Under the pieces are notes generated by a model, which made no database searches, was not told the DNA's origin, and saw nothing but the letters and a program-made list of their open reading frames with translations. A program made the position numbers and the translations under genes. From Thioalkalivibrio denitrificans (GTDB lineage Bacteria; Pseudomonadota; Gammaproteobacteria; Ectothiorhodospirales; Ectothiorhodospiraceae), in contig NZ_MVBK01000004.1 of assembly GCF_002000365.1 (NCBI RefSeq), positions 1 to 35,244 of the forward strand: a stretch of 35,244 nucleotides of DNA. Reading direction: 5' to 3'. Below, piece after piece: positions 21,969 through 29,418 of this stretch (within the stretch, counting starts at the first letter, position 1; each line of letters opens with the position of its first letter).

Positions 21969-24455
21969 TTACCGGGAGAGGCTCCTGGCCCTGCGGATGG
22001 CGTCCGGATTCGAAACGTCAGGTGCTGCGCTCAGGCGCGTGCGGGCCGCCGCTGCGGCGGTACCCTGCGGGGATCCGATCGTGACACCGCGTCTGTGCCC
22101 GTCATTCAGGATCTCGTCGAACCGGCAGGGGCGATGCACTGCATAACCCTGAGCGAAGTGCACGCCCATGTCTTTCAGCAATTCCAGTGCCTCGTCCGAT
22201 TCCACGAACTCGGCAACGATCGTCTTGCCCAGGGTCTGTCCGATCTCGTTGATCGCGCGCACCATGGCTCGGTCCGTGGCGTCCCTGGCAATATCCCGCA
22301 CGAAGGTTCCGTCGATCTTCAGGCAGTCCACGGGCAGGCGGCGCAGATAGCCGAAGGACGACAGACCGGAGCCGAAGTCATCCAGTGCAAAGGTGCATCC
22401 CCGGCTGGCCAGGCGATCCATGAAGCCGATCACATCGACGAGATTCCTTGCCGCCGCGGTCTCCGTGATCTCGAAACAAATCTTCTCTCCCGGGACACCG
22501 TAGTGCTCCAGCCTGTCCACTACGAAGTGGAAGAAATCTGCCTGATCGAAGGAGCGCCCCGAGAGATTGATATGACATGCATCGAGCGCAGCAAGGTGCT
22601 CAGGATGCGCCGCGAGGCGGGCACAGACGTGCTCGATCACCCAGCGGTCGACCAGGTGCGCCGCGCCAAAGCGTTCCGCCGCCGGGAGGAACGCGCCCGG
22701 AGGCACCACCTTGCCCGTTTCGTCGGTCAGGCGCACGAGCACTTCATAACGCAGGTGCTCGGGCCGCGCGAGGCAGACGAGACGCTGTGCGTCCAGGAAC
22801 ATCCGCTGATCCCGCAACGCGGCCCGGATGCGCCCCATCCATTCCATCTCTCCGCGCCGTTCGGCAAGCTGCCGGTCGTCCTCGCACAGCAGGTGCACGC
22901 GGTTGCGGCCCTTCTCTTTGGCCAGGTGGCAGGCGATGTCCGCCGCCCTGAGCAGGCTGCCGGTGTCGGTGCTGGCCGCGGTGATGGGAACGACGCCGAT
23001 GCTGCATCCCAGGCTGAAGGTGGAATCTTCCCAGGCGAAGGTTGCACCCTCCAGCGCCTTGCGCAGCTTCTCCGAGATCCTGGCGGCACCTCCCAGGTCG
23101 CAGTCCTGTAGGATGATGGCGAACTCATCTCCGCCCAGGCGGGCGAGCAGGTCATGCTCCCGGATACTTCTGCGCAGGAGGTCGGCGGCCTGGCGCAGCA
23201 GTTCATCGCCGGCCACGTGGCCCGAGGTGTCATTGACGATCTTGAACTGATCCAGATCGATGAAACAGAGCGCGTGCGCGGAGCCATCGGCCCGGGCTCG
23301 GCGCAGCGTCTCGGCCAACCTGCGCTCGAAGGCGCGGCGGTTCGGCAGGCCGGTGAGGGCGTCATGGTTGGCTTGGTAATCGAGTTCCAGTGACAGGCGA
23401 CGGGACTCGGAGACATCCTCGATGATGGCAATAAAGCGGGGACCATGACGGGAATCCTCGCGCATGCTGGAGATGGTCAGCTTGACCCAGACCGTGTCTC
23501 CGTCGCCGCGATGCAGGCGCTGCTCCACCGTGTCGTTCTCGCGGGTGTCGGAGATCAATTCTTCCCACTGTGCCCGCGCGATCTCCTGGTCCTCTGCATG
23601 GATGTACGCCGGGTAGGGTTGACCGAGGACTGCTTCCTTGGGGCGGCAGAGAATGTTGCACAGAGCCCGGTTGACATCGAGCAGTCGCCCGTCCTGTGCG
23701 ACCAGGGCCATGCCCACTGCGGCCTGCTCGAACGTGGTCCGGAACTTGCGCTCGGCGGAGGTGAGCGCACGGGTGAGCCGCCATCCCAGCAGCCCGGTGA
23801 GGCCCGCGAGCGTGAGGAGGAAGAGGACGCTGGCAACAGACAGCATCCGCGTCATCCAGCGCGCCGCGCCGGAGGCTTCTGTGCGAAACCTCTGACTGAG
23901 CCGTTCCAACGCCAGGTTGATCTCGACCAGGTACATGCGTGACTGTGCCAGCCGGGCCGGAGAAGGCGCCCCCGTTTCCCATTCGGCCTGGAGACGATCG
24001 GCTAGCGCAGCAAGTTCCAGGATGTAGGGATCGCTGTCGCGCCAGGCCTGGACCGCGTCGCGAAAATAGGGCGCTTCCGAGAAGTGACGGAAAAGACGGA
24101 TCATTCCGGGAACATCGTCGGGGTGTATCTGTCCCCGCAACAGTCCCTCGCGGGCGGTTTTGTAATCCAGTGTCGGGGCCTCCATCGCCTTGCGCGCGTC
24201 CAGATCGCCCAGGGGAACGTCCAGCCAGGCACGGGCGTGTTTCAGGTATGCCGGGTCACCCGTTCGCGCATACCGATCCAGGTCACGCACGGCGGACAAC
24301 TGCGCCCGGGACCAGATGCTCTCGCCGCTTAGGTAGGCGGCAGCCCCCGACTGCAAGTGTACGACCGCCACGGTGAATGCCGCGGCTAGGACGGCAAGAC
24401 ACACGAGACCCGCGATCGGGGCTAGCGTGCCTGGTCGCGGCGTGAGTGAACGCAT
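21969..24455 (-). CDS. membrane PAS-GGDEF-EAL cyclic-di-GMP enzyme
   Basis: An 828-residue inner-membrane protein that makes and/or breaks c-di-GMP. Transmembrane helices at about 11-33 and 204-227 flank a helical periplasmic sensor region of no recognised family. A PAS domain (about 236-350) follows. The GGDEF domain (about 361-525) has an intact GGDEF at 441-445 and the inhibitory I-site RxxD (432-435) five residues before it. The EAL domain (about 540-800) keeps the catalytic set: EVL (571-573), NLSG, EITE, LDDFGSG, KIDG and AEFVES. Both activities are thus possible. The ATG at 24455 has AGGGGG upstream; a GTG at 24500 is an alternative. A c-di-GMP riboswitch lies in its leader. Confidence 0.95.
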   Translation of the reverse strand: MRSLTPRPGTLAPIAGLVCLAVLAAAFTVAVVHLQSGAAAYLSGESIWSRAQLSAVRDLDRYARTGDPAYLKHARAWLDVPLGDLDARKAMEAPTLDYKTAREGLLRGQIHPDDVPGMIRLFRHFSEAPYFRDAVQAWRDSDPYILELAALADRLQAEWETGAPSPARLAQSRMYLVEINLALERLSQRFRTEASGAARWMTRMLSVASVLFLLTLAGLTGLLGWRLTRALTSAERKFRTTFEQAAVGMALVAQDGRLLDVNRALCNILCRPKEAVLGQPYPAYIHAEDQEIARAQWEELISDTRENDTVEQRLHRGDGDTVWVKLTISSMREDSRHGPRFIAIIEDVSESRRLSLELDYQANHDALTGLPNRRAFERRLAETLRRARADGSAHALCFIDLDQFKIVNDTSGHVAGDELLRQAADLLRRSIREHDLLARLGGDEFAIILQDCDLGGAARISEKLRKALEGATFAWEDSTFSLGCSIGVVPITAASTDTGSLLRAADIACHLAKEKGRNRVHLLCEDDRQLAERRGEMEWMGRIRAALRDQRMFLDAQRLVCLARPEHLRYEVLVRLTDETGKVVPPGAFLPAAERFGAAHLVDRWVIEHVCARLAAHPEHLAALDACHINLSGRSFDQADFFHFVVDRLEHYGVPGEKICFEITETAAARNLVDVIGFMDRLASRGCTFALDDFGSGLSSFGYLRRLPVDCLKIDGTFVRDIARDATDRAMVRAINEIGQTLGKTIVAEFVESDEALELLKDMGVHFAQGYAVHRPCRFDEILNDGHRRGVTIGSPQGTAAAAARTRLSAAPDVSNPDAIRRARSLSR

Positions 24456-24721
24456 TCGAAGCCCCCTGTCTGGTATCCCCAACCTCGGCCACCGAACCAC
24501 AGTGTGAGCCGCATCGCGGCGACGCTTTCCCTGCTCGAAGCCGTCCGGCGTCCCTTTTCTTGCAAGGAGGGGGGAGGAGCGGGAGAAACGGGGATGGACA
24601 TCGGCCCGGTCAGCACCCGCATCACGTCGTCCCCGGGACGAATCCGTGTCTTCTCCGGTGTCGATAAGGCACTACGGGATCAGCGGGATGCAAGCGAGCA
24701 GATGCGATAACCGAAACGAGC

Positions 24722-24812
24722 GGTTGGCGGTCTGGCAGCCATGCTGTCATGGGACCGGAGTCCGTTAGACCATCGGCTTTGCGTCCCCGTCTTTCGCCGG
24801 GTTTGCCTTAAT
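24722..24812 (-). promoter_or_regulatory. c-di-GMP-I (GEMM) riboswitch aptamer
   Basis: Read on the minus strand, the segment contains in order GGCAAACC (within 24799-24810), a GAAA tetraloop, GGGACGCAAAGCC (24775-24787), then GGTCTAAC. These are the conserved strand, the tetraloop, the c-di-GMP-binding junction with its GCAAAG core, and the tetraloop-receptor side of GEMM-I RNAs. A further hairpin (CCATG/CATGG around 24740-24755) can serve as the third helix. One mismatch is seen in the P1b stem. The gene downstream, about 270 bases on, is the GGDEF-EAL gene. No clear terminator or ribosome-binding-site sequestering stem could be read as expression platform. Confidence 0.88.
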
Positions 24813-24819
24813 CAGACAA

Positions 24820-24835
24820 TGTGATGAATATCACA
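24820..24835. promoter_or_regulatory. CRP/Vfr-type binding site next to the riboswitch
   Basis: TGTGA (24820-24824), six bases and TCACA (24831-24835) match the CRP half-sites perfectly. It lies just upstream of the riboswitch aptamer on the minus strand, too near the aptamer for a classical activator position if the transcript starts before it, so repression or a different start is possible. Confidence 0.6.
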
Positions 24836-25118
24836 TTTCTTAAGCGTGAGCCAACACCTGCAAGGTGCCTTCCGTCACGTCAACCCTACCGCCCGGTCCC
24901 GATCTCCGTCACACCACCTTCCGGACGGCGAAAGGGACGAACCCGCTTCCCGCCAGGGCGCAAGTTGTCACGAGGTCGGCAGCTTGCTCTGCCCCGCTTG
25001 ATCGGGCGCAATGCAGCGGTAGTGCTCCGATGGTACGGATAATAAGGGCTTAAGTTCGTCTCACCCGGTCGGAGGAAAGCGTGTCGGGTGGGGTCTTGTC
25101 ACAATCCGGGAGTACGGC
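24836..25118. other. Intergenic region upstream of the methyltransferase gene
   Basis: No gene or RNA is recognised. A GATAAT (about 25036) may be a -10 for the downstream methyltransferase, but it has no good -35. Confidence 0.35.
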
Positions 25119-29392: not shown

Positions 29393-29418
29393 GATTTTGT
29401 GATGTGCGTCACAAAATC
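29393..29418. promoter_or_regulatory. Perfect CRP-type palindrome upstream of the PEP-CTERM gene
   Basis: GATTTTGTGA (29393-29402), six bases and TCACAAAATC (29409-29418) are perfect reverse complements. The core is TGTGA-N6-TCACA. It is 34 bases before the GTG start of the PEP-CTERM gene, so it probably overlaps that gene's promoter. Confidence 0.7.

Follow-up and report, generated by a model that had tools for sequence, protein, structure and literature searches.

A c-di-GMP-I riboswitch aptamer with an adjoining CRP-type site ahead of an RbdA-like PAS-GGDEF-EAL gene in Thioalkalivibrio denitrificans

The aptamer and the gene that follows it

The window analysed here is a 35,244-nt stretch of the Thioalkalivibrio denitrificans genome. 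On its minus strand lie a c-di-GMP-I (GEMM-I) riboswitch aptamer (24731-24817) and, downstream on the same strand, a gene for an 828-aa membrane PAS-GGDEF-EAL protein (21969-24455). A first-pass annotation of this DNA had recognized a GEMM-I aptamer from its motif blocks and had recommended a covariance search as a check. When the whole window was searched with cmscan, Rfam RF01051 (c-di-GMP-I) matched at 24817-24731 (-) with 80.1 bits (E 2.1e-14), far above the gathering cut-off of 35 bits and over the full length of the model (positions 1-87 of 87). The motif blocks GGCAAACC, the GAAA loop, GGGGACGCAAAGCC and GGTCTAAC were all present on the minus strand, and the identification therefore stands. 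A whole-genome search found three c-di-GMP-I aptamers in total, scoring 80.1 (the one in the window), 79.0 and 64.6 bits. At least one such aptamer was detected in 8 of 57 relatives, and the score of the window copy was the highest among the genus aptamers examined.

The outer P1 helix is not among the pairs of the RF01051 model. In the window, the P1 5' strand GUCUG (24813-24817, minus strand) forms five perfect pairs with the 3' strand CAGAC (24730-24734, minus strand). Among 61 aptamers of the class, the mean number of standard pairs at these positions was 3.20 of 5, compared with 2.59 (sd 0.095) when partners were permuted, and none of 2000 permutations reached 3.20. This covariation indicates that P1 is real across the c-di-GMP-I family, and the window copy of it is perfect. 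Judged by its sequence, the element is a genuine class-I c-di-GMP riboswitch, for which ligand binding is predicted.

One covariance model covers both c-di-GMP and cGAMP riboswitches, but a cGAMP riboswitch (GEMM-Ib) is a highly improbable reading of this element. Hybrid cyclases carry Ser in place of the canonical GGDEF Asp; the protein encoded downstream has the canonical Asp (GHVAGD) and not Ser. In addition, the selectivity nucleotide at model position 11 is G (AAGGCAAA), which is the c-di-GMP rather than the cGAMP form according to the assignment for GEMM-I riboswitches (PMC9262584).

Downstream of the aptamer, the first long open reading frame begins at either 24500 or 24455; the gene upstream is transcribed divergently. 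The best start is the ATG at 24455, the one implied by the first-pass annotation, with the stop at 21969; a Shine-Dalgarno sequence, AGGGGG (24462-24467, minus strand), stands 6 nt before this ATG, and the longer alternative reading from GTG 24500 is without one. Pfam placed a PAS domain at residues 252-365, a GGDEF domain at 377-534 and an EAL domain at 557-791, and the membrane segment is N-terminal. The closest solved protein is RbdA (PA0861; PDB 5xgb), with 441.7 bits over 467 residues. The two proteins share the membrane PAS-GGDEF-EAL layout and their catalytic residues align, whereas the N-terminal 240 residues fall outside the aligned part.

We found that the GGDEF motif is intact (RLGGDEF) and that an I-site RxxD, here REHD, lies 5 residues ahead of it (REHDLLARLGGDEF). 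The EAL residues also align with those of RbdA (E in EVL, which is the first motif, N, E in TET, DD, K, E and Q). The description of this protein as having an intact GGDEF, an I-site and a full EAL set was thus borne out, and the enzyme is predicted to both make and destroy c-di-GMP. RbdA acts as a phosphodiesterase in vivo (PMC10294637), and a net phosphodiesterase is therefore the better guess for the window protein. The same genome encodes many other GGDEF-EAL proteins, which are at most 50% identical to this one. With a c-di-GMP riboswitch in the leader and intact enzyme motifs in the product, feedback at the RNA level and through the I-site, as had been proposed, is possible. An intact dual enzyme behind a riboswitch would offer a clean case for messenger feedback at both the RNA and the protein level.

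The leader and its candidate expression platforms

The distance from the end of the aptamer to the ATG is about 275 nt, in agreement with the earlier estimate of about 270 bases. That estimate had been taken as a hint of an unusual switching mechanism, an idea that found no support. Leaders were longer than 100 nt at 31 of the 50 other comparable loci with a callable start and longer than 200 nt at 11 of them, and aptamer-to-start lengths of 200 nt for Vc1, 224 nt for Vc2 and +48 to +267 for Bc1 are known (PMC11218506); the length is thus ordinary. Vc2 (VC1722) and Vc1 (gbpA) of V. cholerae share with the window the aptamer core, the GAAA loop and its receptor, P1, the selectivity G and a leader of at least 200 nt. 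They differ in their targets, tfoY and an adhesin instead of a GGDEF-EAL enzyme, and their leader sequence is unrelated. Bc1 of B. thuringiensis is also a c-di-GMP-I riboswitch with a long expression platform, but it has two intrinsic terminators and precedes mcpE (PMC11218506). A terminator scan found no intrinsic terminator in the window leader, as the first reading of the sequence had concluded.

An alignment of the leader in relatives had been suggested as a way to find the platform. Nothing in the leader outside the aptamer matched in 47 family genomes, which left no related leader for comparison. Fold stability of the whole leader was considered as a signal and rejected, being no better than that of shuffles (z = 1.0).

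The platform that we favour is a candidate one in which P1 competes with a different pairing, formed by its 5' strand beside the Shine-Dalgarno sequence. The hexamer CAGACA (24467-24472, minus strand) adjoins the Shine-Dalgarno sequence and could offer the P1 5' strand (UGUCUG) another partner, making it a candidate switching strand. It occurs only once in the leader, and the chance of this hexamer falling within 15 positions, near the Shine-Dalgarno sequence, is about 0.26% in what was a post hoc test. When the leader was folded with the aptamer core held and P1 free, CAGACA was predicted to pair with 24813-24818 at a probability of about 0.8-0.9. Folding also speaks against this platform, in that the Shine-Dalgarno sequence was predicted to become no more accessible when the aptamer is bound (on average 0.55 unpaired in the free and 0.36 in the bound state). 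An antisense fit between the aptamer core and the Shine-Dalgarno-AUG region, taken from the minimum-energy fold, was dropped, as 112 of 1000 shuffles were as good.

A translational OFF switch of the Vc2 kind would work by c-di-GMP stabilising the aptamer and translation falling, and together with a net phosphodiesterase it would create a positive loop. Vc2 has been described as a translational OFF switch for which P1 is critical (PMC9262584), and several aptamers of the genus contain the Shine-Dalgarno sequence and run right up to the start codon. However, the start codon in the window is about 275 nt away and the Vc2-like geometry is absent. Folding also gave no clear change, and there is a report of Vc2 acting as a positive regulator when placed in a heterologous host (PMC4545359). 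We consider such a switch doubtful here.

Rho acting at a C-rich tract would be an alternative to the favoured competition for P1: the ligand state would free or hide 24604-24565 for Rho, ending transcription before the gene. This tract (24565-24604, minus strand) is C-rich, G-poor and resembles a Rho-utilisation site, with C minus G reaching 19 in 40 nt. Only 0.013% of all 40-nt windows on both strands equalled this value, which was the highest among the callable leaders compared (at most 17 in the others). The absence of an intrinsic terminator from the leader is consistent with this reading, and E. coli ribB provides a precedent among riboswitches (cited in PMC11218506). The strongest duplex between leader and aptamer also covers the tract (-47.1 kcal/mol, equalled by 6 of 1531 tiles), but among regions of the same length 11% pair with the aptamer as well as this one does, and we discarded the pairing as a special feature. 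Moreover, high-GC DNA has C-rich tracts without Rho function, and no leader in the 47 family genomes lends comparative support. A Rho-dependent platform is accordingly a tentative proposal, and on balance an unlikely one.

A CRP-type site beside the aptamer

We found a perfect CRP-type site, TGTGATATTCATCACA (TGTGA-N6-TCACA), at 24820-24835, 2 nt upstream of the aptamer, which the first-pass annotation did not name. The 3.64-Mb genome contains eight perfect sites of this type, compared with about 1.3 expected from composition and none for the reversed control pattern. A CRP/Vfr orthologue (L074) is encoded in the same genome; its best solved match is Vfr (282.8 bits), and it retains GEM together with RSA and TS, which we take to be the cAMP-binding residues. 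A second perfect site, TGTGATGTGCGTCACA, was seen at 29398-29413, and the 35-kb window thus holds two of the eight in the genome.

A weak promoter-like element, TTGGCT-16-GATATT (8/12, with a TG upstream), was read at 24827-24854 on the minus strand; it falls below the scan threshold. If used, these elements would start transcription near 24820, over the CRP site. CRP bound over the probable start suggests repression, and cAMP-CRP at the predicted site would most likely act as a repressor. CRP sites with one mismatch also precede the genome's other two aptamers, at distances of 52 and 55 nt.

The survey was extended to 107 c-di-GMP-I aptamers from 67 gammaproteobacterial genomes, each searched over the 120 nt before it with at most one mismatch allowed. 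A CRP-like site was detected upstream of 21 of the 107 aptamers, in 17 of the 67 genomes, and six of the 21 were perfect. When the palindrome was permuted with its composition unchanged, six such patterns gave 0-2 hits each among the 107 (Fisher p = 4e-16); TPP riboswitches, a small control, gave none in 30 (p = 0.003), and a more distant region of the same c-di-GMP-I loci, 180-300 nt upstream, gave four. The genomes are partly non-independent, 6 of the 21 sites being in this genus. Most of the sites fall 47-70 nt ahead of the aptamer, a spacing of the sort expected for activation. Loci with CRP-type sites include, besides the one at 24820-24835, L002, L003, L012, L013, L099, L100, L107, L110, L113, L228, L229, L234 and L245.

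These counts raise the idea that a sizeable minority of gammaproteobacterial class-I riboswitches sit on cAMP-CRP promoters and form a general gate for cAMP and c-di-GMP. The window transcript would then be a special case, with CRP lying over the start and a c-di-GMP enzyme as the gated product. We give this generalization an even chance of being correct. CRP-type sites before about one-fifth of the sampled aptamers would link carbon status to c-di-GMP output. In the part of the literature searched, we found no description of a general pattern of CRP with c-di-GMP-I, only single-gene precedents (gbpA). In V. cholerae, a CRP site lies upstream of Vc1, with both on the one gene gbpA (PMC4545359). 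The gbpA leader thus shares with the window a CRP-type site and a class-I c-di-GMP riboswitch on one transcript; it differs in that here the site is 2 nt from the aptamer, implying overlap with the start, and the target is a c-di-GMP enzyme.

Distribution of the pairing and its proposed working

Riboswitch control of a c-di-GMP enzyme appears to be uncommon. We examined up to 5 kb downstream of 60 other aptamer loci in a class-wide sample and found a GGDEF or GGDEF-EAL gene directly after the aptamer at three of them, in each case unrelated to the window gene. L136 encodes a 977-aa GGDEF-EAL protein with a degenerate GGDEF behind a 251-nt leader, L153 has a GGEEF cyclase after the aptamer, and at L127 two degenerate GGDEF-EAL genes each come after an aptamer of their own. 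Compared with these three loci, only the window gene has a fully intact set of GGDEF and EAL motifs. The riboswitch class is thus a known one, its target gene is uncommon, and the CRP site comes in addition.

The other family genomes of the class sample yielded no orthologue with the N-terminal domain. Elsewhere in the class, 12 more distant N-terminal homologues were found (29-52% identity, one at 18%), and none of the 12 has an aptamer upstream. The contigs of 13 relatives likewise showed none, and among all of these no homologue outside this genome was found with one. Relatives with the gene but without the aptamer core had been named beforehand as an argument against the annotation. Such homologues do exist, all of them distant, and they point to a pairing that is local rather than to a false aptamer. 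At L079/L167 (G118), a gene distantly homologous to that of the window has an aptamer just after it, ahead of the next gene and not in its own leader. A plasmid or mobile origin was considered and rejected, plasmid matches all being below 60% identity (best 38.5%).

The restriction of the aptamer-gene association to this genome would fit a relict or uncoupled aptamer, whose RNA binds c-di-GMP while the gene is no longer controlled. The gbpA case is also in line with this, because c-di-GMP acted there independently of the riboswitch (PMC4545359), and an aptamer is therefore no guarantee of the expected control. However, the window aptamer has the top score among the genus aptamers examined, and an element in decay would not retain an intact P1, core and Shine-Dalgarno sequence, as this one does. 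We judge a relict to be improbable.

The best explanation, and in our view a very probable one, is that a functional riboswitch at the 5' end of the mRNA controls the RbdA-like gene in a feedback loop, with CRP gating the same transcript. The class-I c-di-GMP riboswitch would occupy the very 5' end of the PAS-GGDEF-EAL mRNA, and c-di-GMP would close the aptamer and P1, altering either translation or transcription through the leader. The enzyme would in turn shift the level of c-di-GMP and close the loop, while cAMP-CRP would gate the transcript via the perfect site overlapping the probable start. Two signals, c-di-GMP and cAMP-CRP, may in this way jointly set the amount of enzyme; the parts are known, and their combination is uncommon.

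Several other aptamers in the comparison set have features of their own. In the congeneric loci L012, L013, L015, L016, L018 and L019, an ATG directly follows the last base of the aptamer and the likely Shine-Dalgarno sequence, GGGG or GGAG, lies within the aptamer 3' helix; after about 50-75 codons the reading frame reaches a signal peptide, belonging to a gene for a secreted protein or a lipoprotein. Tandem gene pairs, each gene with its own aptamer, were seen at L015/L018 and L016/L019 (G003 and G004), which encode Pro/Glu-rich secreted proteins, and at L127 (G380), with its degenerate GGDEF-EAL proteins. Finally, in L014, L017, L020 and L021 (G047), GCCAAA...GACGGAAA replaces GGCAAA...GACGCAAA. 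One core pair has thereby changed from G-C to C-G in a compensatory manner, and these four aptamers may represent a sub-family.
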